The notes under the pieces were generated by a model. The model was not told where the DNA came from. It worked only from the letters and a program-made list of their open reading frames with translations, and did no database searches. A program made the position numbers and the translations under genes. From NCBI RefSeq assembly GCF_025602895.1, contig NW_026516237.1, forward strand, positions 310,001 through 374,000: DNA of 64,000 nt, written 5' to 3'. The DNA comes from Polychytrium aggregatum. Its lineage: Eukaryota > Chytridiomycota > Chytridiomycetes > Polychytriales. Shown piece by piece: positions 31,818 to 48,746 of this stretch (the stretch's first letter is position 1; the number at the start of each line of letters is the position of its first letter).

Positions 31818-32679
31818 CGTGGCCCGATCGAGTGAATGTGAAGCGATGGGTTGAGATGAGCCGAGGTGGTCGGGGTATGATGATGTTGCGGATAGCCAAA
31901 GCATCGTCGCAAGCAGGATAGTAGCTTCTGCAGCCAAGAAGACAAAGCAGCAATGCCCTTGAGGCACTCACGTCAGCGAAGCAAGGATAAGTACTTCGAG
32001 CCGCTTGAGGCCAGGCGAAGGCCGGCCGAGAATATGGTCGAGCATGGCAAGGGCAATCTGGGGGCTGGATGCGTATGTGGCTGGATCCGTGAACAGATAC
32101 ACTGTCGTGGAGGCGGCTCTGTAGAAGTCAATAGCGGGAAATGAAGGATGCAGGCAAGAATCCGCGGCTGGATCTGCGAGCGGCTTGCTGGGCGAATGTC
32201 AATCGGATGATTTTGGATCGATCGCCAGATCAGGCTGCGACAGCGGATGAGGCTGTCGGTACGTCTGCTGGAACCAGCAAAGCCAAGGAGGAGCAGGAGG
32301 AGCAGGAGGCAGCGGCCGGGGAGGAATGCAGGGGTGGCCCAGGGACGGTCGGCCGGTCGACCAAGTCGTCTCGCCTCGCCTGGTCCGCTTGGTCTGACGG
32401 AGTTTGGAAGCACACGTGAATTCGCTATCCTTTCACGTGCGGCGCCGTGTCGGCTGATTGCCAGTCGGCACGTGGGCATGAACTGGCATGAACTGGCATG
32501 AACTGGCATGAAACTCGGCTCGCTCAACAGAAGCGGGGCCAACGTGGGCGGCTCATTGATGGGAAGCGATCGAGAGGTTGTGGCAGAAGGTGCGTGGCTC
32601 GCGGCGGGCCTGTTGCACTGACCAACTTGCCCGCATTGATGCCATGCGCGGCGTCACGAGTGGACAACTATGTGCACTC
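31818..32679. other. Intergenic region
   Basis: No supported gene. A 189-codon minus-strand frame (31973-32542) is Ser/Arg/Leu-rich and not protein-like. Confidence 0.4.
32479..32513. repeat. Short tandem repeat, 10-bp unit AACTGGCATG
   Basis: Three complete units and partial copies at both ends lie in the intergenic region. Confidence 0.9.
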
Positions 32680-32951
32680 TATTCAGAAAACGGGATACTG
32701 CCCGTTCCATGGACATGTCGCATGTGATGAGCTTGCGTCCAATGGAGACACATGCAATTCAACAGATCACCTCGGAGTGCCAGCGGTGAATGGTGCTCTT
32801 GGACAGACTGAATATGGAGGCAGCGTTTCTCAGGCTGTGGATGATGGCGTAGCACCGCATCACAGAATGGCCATGGCCGGCGCACGATGCTTTGAAGCAA
32901 CAAGCCATTTGATCAACGACCAAAATTCAGAGTGTCCCGTTTTTTGTTGTA
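32680..32951 (-). mobile_element. Internally deleted Tc1/mariner element (MITE-like, 272 bp)
   Basis: The element is bounded by TA at 32680-32681 and 32950-32951. One end reads TATTCAGAAAACGGGATA. The other, on the minus strand, reads CAACAAAAAACGGGACAC. Between them, on the minus strand, lies a decayed N-terminal part of the transposase at 44.6 kb: RCYAIIHSLRNAASIFSLSKSTIHRWH versus RCYALIHSLRKVASIFSVSKSTIHRWH, described here only as a near match. The catalytic domain is absent. Polarity agrees with the large copy: the CAACAAAAAACGGGAC end is on the transposase 5' side and the TATTCAG end on the 3' side. Confidence 0.88.
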
Positions 32952-33286
32952 TTGGAACGCCTGTATTCAGGATCCAGAACGAATGCGGCCATCGATCTCA
33001 AAAACAGGTTGTCCTGTTTGGATGTGAGCGCGCTGCAGTCAAGACAGCGCCGGCAAGGGGAGGAGGAGGAAAAGGAGGCGGAGGAGCTAGTTTCAAGAAT
33101 TGGAAGCAATGGAATACAGCTATGAGTGAGGAACGATTGAGCAAAGAGAAGGACGAGAAAAGTGGGTGGGGCGTCGTCGTCGGCGGAGTAGGAGGAGCGC
33201 GGGCGGTGTGTGTCAGAGACAAGGGCGGGCAGCGACACCAAGCAGATCAGCTTGGTCCAAAAGAAGAGACATCACGCCAAGCGGGT

Positions 33287-38008: not shown

Positions 38009-38079
38009 TGCATGGTCCGGGAATCGAACCCGGGTCTGCCGCGTGGCAGGCGGCAATTCTACCACTGGACCAACCATGC
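38009..38079 (-). tRNA. tRNA-Gly(GCC)
   Basis: The reverse complement folds as a 71-nt tRNA. The acceptor stem GCATGGT pairs with ACCATGC, with discriminator A. The D arm contains GGTCCAGTGGTAGAAT, the anticodon loop is CTGCCAC with anticodon GCC, and the T arm is CCCGGGTTCGATTCCCGG with a perfect stem. There is no intron. Confidence 0.96.
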
Positions 38080-40078: not shown

Positions 40079-40151
40079 GGCCGCATGGCCAAATGGATAA
40101 GGCGCTTGACTACGAATCAAGAGATTCCAGGTTCGACCCCTGGTGTGGTCG
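40079..40151 (+). tRNA. tRNA-Arg(ACG), copy 1
   Basis: A 73-nt tRNA. Acceptor GGCCGCA pairs with TGTGGTC (two G-U pairs), the D arm is TGGCCAAATGGATAAGGCG, the anticodon stem-loop is CTTGACTACGAATCAAG with anticodon ACG, and the T arm is CCAGGTTCGACCCCTGG. A T-rich Pol III terminator (TTTCTTTTTGTTTTTG) follows. Confidence 0.96.
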
Positions 40152-42990: not shown

Positions 42991-43063
42991 CGACCACACC
43001 AGGGGTCGAACCTGGAATCTCTTGATTCGTAGTCAAGCGCCTTATCCATTTGGCCATGCGGCC
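42991..43063 (-). tRNA. tRNA-Arg(ACG), copy 2 (inverted)
   Basis: The reverse complement is identical over 73 nt to the copy at 40079-40151. Its 3' flank (T/G-rich terminator followed by CGTCTTCCTCGCTTTCTCTCC) also matches, so the duplicated unit extends about 50 bp beyond the tRNA. It lies 185 bp upstream of the PIG-L start codon. Confidence 0.96.
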
Positions 43064-44375: not shown

Positions 44376-44525
44376 GCCATCAATGCAGCCCGCGAAGGAC
44401 AAAATGAGACCGTGTGCATATGGCCGCTGCACCAAACATGGACATGAAGCCCGGCGGTTCACAGGCCGCATGGTCATTGTTTTTCGGTCCTGGTCGGCCA
44501 TTGTTTCGTGTTTTGTTTACAGGCA

Positions 44526-44546
44526 ATCCAATAAAAAACGGGACAC
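44526..44546 (+). repeat. Element 5' terminus (transposase side)
   Basis: ATCCAATAAAAAACGGGACAC. The same core recurs inverted at 32933-32955 and, with one change (ATGGGAC), at 10468-10485. Confidence 0.75.
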
Positions 44547-44603
44547 CCGGGTTTTTGACCATTCATCGAATATTTTGTTACCCAATGTTATCGCGCGCTG
44601 GCC

Positions 44604-45410
44604 ATGACCATTCGCCACACATCCGACTTTCGCACCGCCGCATTGCGATGCTACGCCCTCATCCATAGCCTGCGTAAGGTCGCCTCCATCTTCAGTGTGT
44701 CCAAGAGCACCATCCATCGATGGCACCGAGGATGCAAGCTGGATGACCCATCCCGGGTCCCAGCTCGCAGATCCACTTTCTTCGAGCAGGCATCTCCAGT
44801 CATTCGCACCCTGATTGAACAGGACCCGTTCCAGACTGGGCCTGTGTTGCGATGCAAGCTCGAGTCCATCCTCCAGAGGAAAGTATCACTCACACTCTGC
44901 CACACTGCCATCCACCGAGCAGGTCTCTCACACAAGAGGGCAACACACCTCTACAAGTCCAAGCGACTGGATGAGCGAGTGGCACAGTTCAGGGACCAGG
45001 TCCGCTCCATCGACCCACGACGATTCGTTTTTGTCGACGAGACAGGGATCAGGAGATCCATTTTCCCTCTCTACGGATACTCGCCGAAGGGTGCTCCGCT
45101 TCGCCAGCGCAATCACATGAAACACAAGTCTGTCTCGGCTGCATTTGCCATCAACCACTCTGGTGTGCTGCATCGCATGTACATCCCCACATCATTCAAG
45201 ACACACTCGATGGTCGAGTTCTTTGAGCGAGCGACCTTCCCAGACGACTCTGTGGTTGTGATGGACAATGTCAGCATGCACAAGACAAGGGCTGTCCTGG
45301 ACTGCATCGAGCGCCGAGGATGGTCAGTGATCTTCACCCCACCTGCCTCACCCGACTTCAATCCCATCGAGAACTTCTTTGGAGTTGAGTCCCCACCGAT
45401 TTGGGGTTGA
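44604..45410 (+). pseudogene. Tc1/mariner DD34E transposase, C-terminally truncated
   Basis: The N-terminal helix-turn-helix (RCYALIHSLRKVASIF, SKSTIHRWH) is followed by a linker and the DDE domain. D1 is in FVFVDETGIRRS (about residue 145), D2 in VVVMDNVSMHK, and the Glu in SPDFNPIENFF, with 34 residues between D2 and E. The normal family C-terminus after NPIENFF (usually 30-60 more residues) is missing. The frame runs into VESPPIWG and stops at the start of the 21-bp repeat array before the Fanzor gene. All three catalytic residues survive, so activity is uncertain. The junction marks where the Fanzor cassette replaced the transposase 3' end. Confidence 0.85.
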
Positions 45411-45443
45411 GTTCCTCCAATTTGGAGTTGAGCTCCCCAATCA
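45381..45443. repeat. Three 21-bp imperfect direct repeats at the transposase-Fanzor junction
   Basis: Units at 45381-45401, 45402-45422 and 45423-45443 follow the consensus TGGAGTTGAGTCCCC.CCAATT. They occupy exactly the junction between the truncated transposase and the Fanzor upstream region. Confidence 0.85.
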
Positions 45444-45679
45444 CGCCGCCATTCTCACGCTCACATCCCTGGCTTGAACCTCTCGGCGATTTTTGAACAG
45501 GGTCACTTCCCCAACCAGCCCGCGCAGACGGGCTCCTGCTCTCGGGTATAAATGCCACATCTTCGTCCTGCTGCTTTCTTCCCTCATCTCGCCTTGATCG
45601 GATCATCGCGCTATTGTACGATAAAAAAGTCTCTGCTCTGACCAGTACCACTGGCAGGCATCCAGCATTCTCTGTCCCC

Positions 45680-48051
45680 ATGCCTCCGAAGCTTAAGGGT
45701 GCCGGTGATGGCCAGCCTCGGCCACCCAGGCCCAAGAAAGCCAAGTCACAGTCGGAGCCTGTCTCTGGTTCGTATTCTGACCCCACGCATGCTTGTTCGT
45801 CTGTTGCTCCGTTGCTCACCACCACTGCTTCTGCAGATCCAATGGATGTCGATCCCACCGAGCCTGGTCCATCTACTTCCTCGAGTACCGGCAAGCGATG
45901 TCGCCAGTGCGATGGCACCGATCACGAACGTTGCAACACCAGCAAATGTCCCAAATACCGGCCCCTCAAGAGCTCCGTCGTCCCACTCGTGGATGGAAGG
46001 TCATCCGCCCCTCAGTTCAGCTGCTTCAAGCAGACGATGGATGGCTGTTGTCTCAATCCCGCTCTCCGCGACAAGATCCAGGCCACCGTCGAGGCCATGA
46101 CCCAGATCCAGTTCGAGGCATCCAGGCTGCTCAACCTGCACATCCTCCGGTGCATCGAGCAGGATCTTCCCGTCCCCGTCATCTCCAAGTCCACCCCTGC
46201 TTTCATCCGCCAATGCTTCAAGATCGTCCAGGACGGTGCCCTCTCCCCGACCGGGGACAATGAGAAATACAACGAGCATCTGGTCGCTTCCTTTCGCGAC
46301 TACCAGACCACTCGGCACGCAGACCTGCCTCCGGCCCCTCGTCTGCCTGATGGTGCTCACAGTCAGCTTCTCACACTGGCTGTCAATGCCTATGCCACCA
46401 ACTGCACCACCCACCTCGACCTGGCCTACTGGCGACTCCTTCGCCGCTTCTGCGCTGCCGTCTTCCCAGCCAACAAGCACAAGCACGACGCCATCGAGGT
46501 CTGTCTCGAGCTCTTCGAGAAACCGGACTCGACTCCACCCAAGGCCGATCTCGAGTTCCTCTATCCCGAGTTTAGCCACATCCTGGACGAGTTTCGGTAC
46601 AGCAGCGACCAGGACCGCTTCCGGGCCCTCCATCGCCTCTCACACCATGTGGGAATCCTCGCCCGAGACAAGATGGTCGACAATGTCCACAAGTGGATCG
46701 ACTGTGACATGCCCGCCCTCCGAGTCACCGAGCTGCAGCGCCAGGCCAAGCTGGACGAGCTCACTGCCCGAGGCATTCCCTCCGACGACAAGAGGTTCAC
46801 CACGGCCAAGTCGGAGCTCGGCACCACCAAGTCCAAGATCAACAAGCTGGCCGCCAGGATCAACTGGGCCCTCAAGCAGCTCTCTCTCGACACTCCTCCG
46901 GCCGTGTGCACGATGGTTCCTCTGTGCACTGCCACGGCCAAGTATGTCAAGATCGACACCGTCACTCTCTGGGAGCTCCTGGGTCCAAAGAAGCGCCTTG
47001 GACTCACCCGGGACAAGCTCAAGGAAGAAGGTGATGACGGCATCAACAACCAGGATCGTCTCTGGCGCAGTTGCTTCAAGCTGCGTAGTTCCCTCTTCCA
47101 AGAGCGGGACGTGAACAAGAAGCTGTTCAACTACGAGATCAGCACCGATGGTATCGGATGCACCATCGGTCTCGTCAAGTTTCTGCCTCGAACCGATCAC
47201 ACCGAGACCACCACACCCGTCAAGACTACCGAGCAGCGTATCCAGGCCCACATCGGCAACCCAGACCCCAACCGTACCACTTGGATTGGCATCGATCCTG
47301 GAGTCGGCTCCATCTTCACGGCGGTCATCCAAGCACCGGGCCACCAAGACGAGGTGGTCTCGTTCTCGAATGGCCACTACCAGCACATGTGTGGCCATAC
47401 GTCCAATACTGAGCGGCACAACACCATGAAGTATCGACTCGGCATCGAGACCTGGATGTCGACCACCCCCTCGCCCAAGGTGTCGTCCTCGGAAGCCTTC
47501 AAGGTCCATCTCACCCATGTCCTGCAACCGGAGCTGCGAGTGCAGCTCGACTTCCACCTTGGCAAGAAGGCCCGTCACCATCGATTCACAGGCCACAAGA
47601 GGCGCCAAGTGGCCGTCGACAGGATGTGCAAGGCCGTCCTGAAGCACGCCCCGATACGGACCGATGTGGTGATCGCCTTTGGCAATGCGTCATGGCGACA
47701 GGGCAAGGGCTATGCATCCAGCCCTCGGAGGCAGCGGTTTGCTCGGTACTTTGAGCAATTCGAGCACCACCGACGCCGTCCCAATCACCATCATGGAAGT
47801 GTCAAGGTAGTCTCGGCGAACGAGTTCAACACCTCGCAAGTGTGCTCCAAGTGCCTGGAGCCAGTTCGGTTGGAAGGACTCGATGCGCCCAGTGTTGCGA
47901 ATTCCCATTTGTCAGGAGCTGCAAGAAACCCAGCTGCCGGACAGTGTGGAATCGCGACGTCAATGCGGCGCGCAACATGATCACAGTATGCAGGTCGATT
48001 GTGGAGATCGGAGAGCGACCGGCGGTCTTCACTCGGAGGCTGCCAAAGTGA
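45680..48051 (+). pseudogene. Fanzor (eukaryotic TnpB-like RNA-guided nuclease), one frameshift near the C-terminus
   Basis: The frame from ATG 45680 to TGA 47980 covers 766 codons, but the genuine C-terminus lies in another frame ending at 48051. A basic NLS-like RPPRPKKAK sits near the start. A knuckle CRQCDGTDHERCNTSKC follows, then a long helical region, FNYEISTDG, and RuvC-I TWIGIDPGVGS (Asp about residue 539). The RuvC-II region is DVVIAFGNASW, lacking the usual Glu. An alternative Glu occurs about 47 residues later in ANEFNTSQVCSKC (about residue 715). Fanzors are described as using such a relocated Glu. From about 47865 the homologous sequence shifts frame: CKKPSC and RuvC-III TVWNRDVNAARN (Asp codon 47956-47958), ending FTRRLPK. 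A net 1-nt loss between about 47862 and 47890 explains this. I chose ATG 45680 because the earlier frame start is not ATG. Confidence 0.88.
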
Positions 48052-48120
48052 TCTGTTTTATTTCTTGTGGCTTTGCTTGACGCAAGCACAGCACATACTA
48101 CCTGTTCATGGAAACGGCTA

Positions 48121-48145
48121 TATTGTCCCGTTTTTTTTCTGAATA
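48121..48145 (-). repeat. Element 3' terminus
   Basis: Read on the minus strand: TATTCAG, A8, CGGGACAATA. It matches the TATTCAGAAAACGGGATA end of the 272-bp derivative at 32680. Confidence 0.75.
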
Positions 48146-48149
48146 AAGT

Positions 48150-48248
48150 GTAGGGAACCTCGTCTTGAATACACCCGGTCGATCTCCTGTGGCGACGGCC
48201 CAATAGCATACCGAGATTGTGTTCTTGGCTGTGCTGATGTCTCGGTGT
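48150..48248 (-). pseudogene. Second, divergent Fanzor C-terminal fragment in opposite orientation
   Basis: The minus strand reads HRDISTAKNTISV, then GDRPGVFKTRFP. This parallels NRDVNAARNMITV ... GERPAVFTRRLP of the Fanzor on the plus strand. It keeps the RuvC-III Asp but nothing upstream of it. Its 3' side runs straight into the TATTCAG terminus, so two Fanzor 3' ends face each other across one element end. The fragment is too divergent at DNA level to be a simple inverted duplicate of its neighbour. Confidence 0.65.
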
Positions 48249-48746
48249 GGGAGCGTGGTGGATGGATTCAACCTTCTAGACAGTTCCATAATTCTCTATA
48301 TCAAGATACTCGGCCTTCTTGATTCGACTGGCTTCCAAGCACTATAGGCACACAGTTTGGTCATGGTAGCGGTGGCCTGGTGCCTTTATTCAGCACCAGA
48401 AAACAATAAAAATCCCGACTCAAGCTAATGTGTCCCGTTCGTTTTGTGGCCTAGCCTCCCTTACTACCTATGCTGCTGTTCCTGCTGCTCCTGCTGTATC
48501 TGCTGGCTTGAGCCGAGGTTGCAATAAACCTTCGGTCAAACGATTTCACAAACGCCGCTGCTTGATCACAGCCATCGAAGGTTATGTTGACTTGAGGGTG
48601 ACTGCGGTAGAGCAGCTTGACCCGATCCTCATCTTGCAGGAGCAGGTTATGAGTATCAATCGGAGGAAGCACAAAGGGCTGGATTATAGAGTCGCGAGAA
48701 GCACTTAGTCGCTGCTATTGATTGCGCTCGAGGAAGTCTCCCCCGG
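48249..48746. other. Region between transposon and receptor gene
   Basis: A further CGGGACACA-like terminus (minus strand, about 48410-48425) hints at another decayed element. A minus-strand frame 48451-48672 (DTHNLLLQDEDRVKLLYR) might be a last receptor exon, but I cannot join it. Confidence 0.35.

Follow-up and report, generated by a model that had tools for sequence, protein, structure and literature searches.

Polychytrium aggregatum carries a family of Tc1/mariner transposons in which a DD34E transposase and a Fanzor nuclease lie in a single element, and in which the left tip of some copies has been overwritten, in register, by the target sequence that follows the copy's own right end, while right tips vary little. 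One copy with both ends lies in the window, which is the whole 64,000-nucleotide stretch analysed (assembly GCF_025602895.1, contig NW_026516237.1, positions 310,001 to 374,000 of the forward strand). Tentatively, and with somewhat less than even confidence, we read the overwriting as the fossil trace of a eukaryotic Fanzor that homes, guided by RNA, within its natural host: a cut 3′ of a TTA target-adjacent motif (TAM) at emptied sites would have been followed by copying the element back; the transposase, the nuclease, the guide-RNA region and the miniature "ghost" derivatives would then all belong to one recently active family. The features of the window copy and its ends are as follows.

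44520..48150, plus strand: full extent of the transposon copy, 3,631 bp, flanked by TA duplications
44518..44519: left TA target-site duplication, with T before it (TTA being the proposed TAM-like motif)
44520..44527, plus strand: left tip CAGGCAAT, overwritten by target sequence in some other copies
44528..44545, plus strand: conserved inner left end CCAATAAAAAACGGGACA
44604..45410, plus strand: truncated DD34E transposase open reading frame (ORF), 268 residues plus stop; the complete form (copies L036 and L039) has 310 residues
45382..45422, plus strand: scar of the lost transposase C-terminus in the subfamily of the window copy, ~40 bp compared with ~145 bp in L036
45680..47980, plus strand: Fanzor1-like ORF, 766 residues in the window copy; intact copies occur elsewhere
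48052..48150, plus strand: 99 bp from the native Fanzor stop to the right end, kept by ghosts; candidate guide-RNA scaffold by analogy with Spu-1
48124..48150, minus strand: right terminal inverted repeat, reading CACTTTATTCAG...AAAAACGGGACA on the minus strand
48151..48152: right TA target-site duplication

Overwriting of the left tip

The assembly comprises 64.7 Mb in 418 contigs. In a search with the element, the best 40 of 1,235 first-look candidates were scored, and all 40 were fetched; these full copies and 20 ghosts were the starting material (L and C numbers denote individual copies and contigs). The consensus left tip reads CAGGCAAT, followed by CCAATAAAAAACGGG, and several copies carry other tips that match the DNA after their own right TA. 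The match between left tip and own right flank extends over 9 nt in L016 and L027, 5 nt in L127, and 4 nt in L116 and L120. At 51 independent sites that were not picked by their tip, the summed match was 63, compared with a shuffled mean of 34, and none of 20,000 shuffles reached it; the signal lies in 15 copies whose tip start departs from the consensus (40 versus 9.9). This set leaves out 5 full copies, namely L028, which has no left end, and L032, L033, L024 and L038, each the second contig of a site, as well as 4 ghosts (L113 and L130, with an end missing; L124 and L126, second contigs); the tip start of L116 was moved one base by hand. Comparing right tips with left flanks as the mirror case (0 of 51) is uninformative because the fixed T forces a mismatch.

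A prospective set gave a similar picture. It was drawn from 39 left-end places whose first tip base is not C; 20 of these were tried, excluding places already seen and apparent second contigs, a right end was found in 12, and 10 independent sites were kept (C124:259944, which shares its right flank with L016, and C156, at the same site as C223, were dropped). The matches at the 10 sites were 7, 5, 5, 5, 4, 3, 2, 1, 0 and 0, a sum of 32 against 7.3 expected from shuffling (0 of 20,000 shuffles). In C52 and C124:162027, CA stands in place of the right TA, and the flank was counted from the base that follows; at the 8 sites with an intact right TA, the sum was 27 versus 7.1 (5 of 20,000 shuffles). 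Moreover, all 11 in-register variant tracts of at least 2 nt end on a base that fits the consensus tip, for which a frequency of ~0.44 was estimated without a homology requirement; the off-register L116 and copies with inherited tips (e.g., L030 and L034) are omitted from these 11.

Tip variation is polarised. A changed terminal base was found at 39 places at left ends, a count that includes second contigs and a few older relatives and comes from a search pattern able to find in-register cases only, and at 2 places at right ends, which share letters and are probably one site in two contigs. The search anchors were nearly equally present in the fetched copies (44 of 58 left, 43 of 58 right). 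In nucleotide diversity (pi), the left tip (element positions 1–10) was the highest of eight stretches compared, at 0.117; the right tip stood at 0.017, the 3′ noncoding region at 0.028 and the intergenic region at 0.047, and synonymous divergence (dS) in the Fanzor gene was 0.095.

The left side is also marked by the base outside the element. T precedes the left TA at 75 of 79 independent sites and A at the other 4, compared with T before 13.6% of TA dinucleotides in the window, and the mirror base A on the right shows no preference (5 of 35). Among older relatives, T before the left TA is common by eye, though not universal. By analogy with Spu-1, where CA precedes the left repeat and the TAM is CATA, we predict that TTA, with ATA tolerated, serves as the TAM of the Fanzor here; an asymmetric target preference of the transposase would also give a T before the left TA. 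Separately, 12 of 51 right flanks start with CA after the TA, as the left tip does; in the window, 8.8% of TA sites are followed by CA (binomial p 0.0013).

Element boundaries and copies in the genome

The original prediction placed a Fanzor gene and a transposase in one element with matching ends at 44526–48145. Its observation holds, and both genes do lie within a single TA-flanked element, but the ends needed correction: the predicted boundaries miss the outermost 6 bp on the left and 5 bp on the right. The element spans 44520–48150, because the fetched copies co-end there with TA directly outside. Apart from L028, which has no left end, every fetched copy shows TA immediately outside that end (39 of 39), and TA immediately follows the ...AAAGTG right end in 39 of 40; the right tip ends in TG in 40 of 40 and in GTG in 39 of 40. 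The terminal inverted repeats share AAAAACGGGACA and an initial CA at both ends and differ in their outer bases, as predicted, with the left tip far more variable than the right. The 12-mer AAAAACGGGACA has three exact matches in the window, at 44534–44545 (plus strand), 48124–48135 (minus strand) and 32933–32944 (minus strand); allowing one mismatch added none, and the mean in 100 shuffles was 0.17. An initial query for empty sites with 14 sites listed, as matches, relatives of two sites that lie in other repeats (L001, L005). For two sites, a single TA agrees with the pre-insertion relatives: five nearly identical ones for the L005 site, which is T-rich, and seven diverged ones for the window's own site.

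Pattern searches of the genome with up to 3 mismatches gave 433 left ends, 276 transposase C-termini, 247 Fanzor cores and 51 miniature-form junctions, and reversed-pattern controls were all 0; these counts do not equal independent insertions because many sites are represented twice, in near-identical contigs that may be haplotypes or duplications. By these counts copies with a complete transposase are common, and we dropped the use of the best 40 copies as typical of the family: those 40 lie nearest to the window copy and contain the class with a deleted transposase in excess.

The ghost form is ~308 bp long and joins the left ~97 bp to the right ~215 bp, the latter comprising the end of the Fanzor gene and everything between its stop and the right end. 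An older miniature relative lies elsewhere in the window and carries the same two ends in the same order, as had been proposed:

32675..32963 (approximate), minus strand: older miniature relative, 289 bp by reading, with the transposase N-terminus fused to the Fanzor-stop region

Its right TA has apparently decayed to TG. Just downstream of the window copy, at 48380–48445, ATTCAG and TGTCCCGTTCGTTTTG motifs may be the decayed end of another relative. Three copies (L016, L027 and L031) sit directly before the left end of an apparent older relative in the same orientation, their right flank running towards CGGGAC, a placement that seems commoner than random TTA insertion would give (both by eye). 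Three tRNA genes (38009–38079, 40079–40151 and 42991–43063) lie ~1.5 to 6.5 kb upstream of the element.

Transposase and Fanzor in one element

The truncated transposase ORF of the window copy matches PF13358 (DDE_3) at 8e-22, and the complete 310-residue transposase at 1.4e-20. In L036 the triad is D145, D221 and E256, with 34 residues between the last two, hence DD34E. A protein search returned 33 transposase relatives at E ≤ 0.001, which are 27–39% identical. The original prediction held that a cassette had replaced the 3′ end of the transposase. This is wrong: L036 and L039 encode the complete 310-residue protein through ...NPIENFFGIVKHQYRK...MRFWG-stop and continue into the same intergenic DNA as the window copy, which is therefore a deletion derivative that lost the transposase C-terminus. 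Complete copies have the DD34E transposase followed by an intact 790-residue Fanzor downstream, and the C-terminal transposase DNA is kept in five fetched copies, L036–L040 (L037 and L038 being one site). In zero-mismatch lists for contigs C1–C134, a Fanzor core follows ~1.9 kb downstream, on the same strand, at 42 of 46 transposase C-termini, which makes separation of the two genes unusual; of 97 Fanzor cores, 42 are preceded by a transposase C-terminus. The ratio of nonsynonymous to synonymous divergence among 39 copies was 0.31 for the Fanzor and 0.23 for the transposase. Internal deletions in the transposase recur at element positions ~105–230, 109–352 and 656–783 (L029, L030, L031, L034, L037, L038, L060 and others), and that at ~656–783 is present in one of two contigs only at two sites (L001/L032 and L014/L033).

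In the window copy, a frameshift in the zinc-finger region of the Fanzor changes the C-terminus, and the native stop (48049–48051) lies in another frame. An open frame of at least 790 residues reaching the native stop was counted by hand in 29 of 40 fetched copies. An intact copy matches PF07282 at 2.5e-8, above the cut-off. Fanzor1 has been defined by D-X(125,275)-[TS][TS]-X-X-C4 zinc finger-X(5,50)-RD (PMC3627910), and the protein carries this pattern with D539, a gap of 178, TS at 718–719, the C4 finger and RD at 759–760, although other D residues also fit the loose gap. Fanzor1 is further marked by DPG, as opposed to D-hydrophobic-G in TnpB (PMC10711439); here GIDPG at D539 is invariant in 8 aligned intact copies. 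As for the alternative-position RuvC glutamate, the stretch VVIAFGN (663–669) has no acidic residue, and E715, before TS, is a candidate by eye. The sole match to a solved structure up to E 1 was SpuFz1, over the C-terminus only (E 0.31 with the single sequence, 0.045 with a profile). A protein search with the intact Fanzor found no match at E ≤ 0.001 among 7,993 candidates scored, and no relative of the Fanzor or the transposase was confirmed in the viral contigs searched.

Different occupants of one site

Seven same-site pairs in two contigs show that one site can hold different element copies: the elements differ at 510 of 21,799 aligned positions (2.3%), and their flanks at 10 of 9,857 (0.1%). 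The differences are patchy along the element, and in the first four pairs both alleles of 196 of 226 differences occur in other fetched copies, which is a mark of gene conversion. One such pair is formed by the window region (C279) and the near-identical C409. The older relative at 32.7 kb is 100% identical over 299 bp and the element flanks have 1 difference in 1,800, while 74 substitutions and 135 gap positions, mainly one internal deletion, separate the element copies. Of 12 pairs, made up of the first four aligned and the 8 with both flanks from the query given below, 8 have occupants that differ by more than 10 bp in size (computed by hand from coordinates), in one case 3,629 versus 308 bp, as confirmed by alignment. 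Two further sites apparently pair a ghost with a longer copy, C156/C223, with the same overwritten tip and both flanks alike, and L122/L051, judged on the left flank only. Pairs of old relatives served as a control, and 17 of them together show 1 difference in 3,303 positions and one gap; this control is biased towards identity, since pairs were partly picked by equal search scores, and consists of diverged short repeats with fewer conversion partners. A query with 12 sites found, for 9 of them, another contig that carries the same flanks (both flanks in 8 cases and the left flank alone in 1; scoring covered 40 of 44 candidates), and all 9 were occupied. This is not decisive for homing because shared descent would give the same result.

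Possible origin of the one-sided scars

A left side with target sequence beyond the TTA, combined with an exact right side, argues for a cut to the right of the TTA in the empty site, and this is the geometry of Fanzor and TnpB cleavage. In the characterised SpuFz1, the TAM is followed by the target, which is cut after bases 16–17 and 20–21 (PMC10432273). A mechanism can be proposed along these lines: (i) the DD34E Tc1/mariner transposase would move the element, mostly into TTA sites, duplicating TA; (ii) a putative guide RNA would consist of the last ~99 nt of the element and the flank beyond its right end; (iii) after excision, or opposite an empty allele, the empty site would read TTA plus the right flank; (iv) the Fanzor, guided by the flank, would cut to the right of the TTA, and repair would copy an element-bearing template; (v) the left side of the break would read flank-TTA-target, and the target stretch could stay paired to the left tip and overwrite it in register, leaving the right junction exact; and (vi) template switching during copying would yield internal deletions, ghost derivatives and mosaic interiors. 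The structure and ends of the element, the TA duplication, the TTA bias, the one-sided overwriting of tips and the different occupants of paired sites are direct observations; that the Fanzor makes the break, that a guide RNA exists and that TTA is the TAM is what we infer. That breaks to the right of the TTA at emptied sites were healed by copying the element back, as Fanzor homing, seems to us evenly balanced, and so does the step from polarised breaks to the Fanzor as the cutter.

Several results weigh against Fanzor homing. Without L116, L016 and L027, the 51-site test weakened to 41 versus 31.7 (119 of 20,000 shuffles). L016 and L027, two of the five clear unselected cases, adjoin the left end of an older element by eye, and their tips could therefore stem from recombination with that neighbour. 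The 36 copies with the consensus tip scored 23 versus 23.0, and shuffling cannot test them because their tips are alike (33 and 3 of 36). In the prospective set, 3 of the 10 variants (C2, C386 and C124:162027) match their own flank by 0–1 nt, and the match in C52 depends on reading its right-hand TA as decayed to CA. Two overwritten copies (L120 and C168:490664) stand at ATA rather than TTA. Among the flanks of 58 copies, no unrelated sites share the start of the right flank, as guide-matched homing to new sites would produce: agreement at 14 or more of 20 bases occurs in six pairs, all of them from the same site. RNAalifold on 14 right ends (two of 16 were not parsed) gave no convincing structure and a weak consensus (−0.87). 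An AlphaFold model of the Fanzor built from 8 near-identical sequences was unusable at a mean predicted local distance difference test score of 34.7. The turnover of interiors might come from transposase cuts or ordinary ectopic conversion alone.

The last point leads to an explanation in which the Fanzor is a passenger: breaks left by transposase excision would be gap-repaired, with template switching between the empty homologue and element templates. Gap repair of DNA-transposon breaks is established, ectopic conversion needs just breaks and many copies, and the deletion derivatives and mosaic interiors fit. We nevertheless consider this explanation rather improbable, since a break at TA is symmetric and right tips should change as often as left ones, in contrast to the 39 left and 2 right places; nor does it by itself explain the T at −3 on the left only, though the asymmetric target preference mentioned above could. 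One-sided variation would also arise if insertion were led by the right end, the transposase joining that end to TA and microhomology repair by the host joining the left, with apparent duplications of 4–11 bp. Such insertion needs no Fanzor, and would account for L028, which has no left end, and for some off-register tips (8 places, whose right flanks were not examined, and L116). It is difficult to reconcile with the 11 tabulated tracts, all of them exactly in register and terminating on a base that agrees with the tip, and with the rarity of left truncation (1 of 40 copies), and we regard it as unlikely.

The differences between paired contigs raise a separate concern, namely that they are artefacts of assembly or polishing and that the element is an ordinary Fanzor-mariner. 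The ends of elements in paired contigs tend to agree while their interiors differ, as in mis-assembled repeats, and mis-assembly of ~96%-identical repeats may have occurred. However, 354,306 bases contain no N and contigs reach 1.6 Mb, the paired old repeats agree, size differences as large as that between a 308-bp ghost and a 3.6-kb copy are poorly explained in this way, and the tip-overwriting result is independent of contig pairs. An artefact thus appears very improbable.

Relation to known systems and implications

The combination of Fanzor1 and a mariner transposase is already known from PUl-1 and PGv-1, each with both genes in one element, and PUl-4, a relative with the Fanzor alone, has mariner ends flanked by TA duplications (Bao and Jurka 2013, PMC3627910). 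PGv-1 is described there as single-copy and with a third gene, a GIY-YIG nuclease; the passages on PUl-1 and PGv-1 make no mention of tip overwriting or same-site turnover. The SPu-1 element of Spizellomyces punctatus, which encodes SpuFz1, is TA-flanked, has inverted repeats and a Fanzor1, and carries conserved bases before its left repeat, CA there and T here (PMC3627910, PMC10432273). As here, its ghosts keep the right-end RNA region, and ~75–90 nt separate the stop from the right repeat or end; an 88–90-nt RNA was described (PMC10432273). Two differences stand out in these accounts: the authors found no transposase between the Spu-1 repeats, whereas one is present in the same element here, and the TAM of SpuFz1 was measured as CATA, whereas TTA is a prediction.

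The proposed logic, in which the guide records the insertion site, resembles that of TnpB retention and plasmid gene drive in IS200/IS605, where a cut next to the TAM at the excision junction is followed by homologous repair that brings the element back (preprint PMC11870625). Those bacterial insertion sequences differ in moving by peel-and-paste transposition with no DDE-type transposase, according to the same preprint. KolobokP likewise pairs a DDE transposase (DDD/E) with a second, homing-type nuclease, although of the His-Me type rather than an RNA-guided RuvC enzyme, and in a different superfamily (PMC9587614). None of the matches listed from the open-access literature describes, for Fanzor elements, overwritten tips or turnover at a single site. 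To our knowledge, IS200/IS605 elements make no TA duplication.

A 2023 characterisation stated that the role of Fanzor activity remained unknown (PMC10432273). The family described here makes that role testable, as it offers an in-element transposase, intact Fanzors, hundreds of insertions, a predicted TAM and ghosts, and left-tip overwriting is a quantitative scar expected to vanish without the nuclease. If the Fanzor is indeed the cutter, cut-and-copy retention in the style of TnpB would no longer be confined to bacterial insertion sequences but would reach eukaryotic DDE transposons, and the one-sided scars would offer a natural clue to what Fanzors are for.

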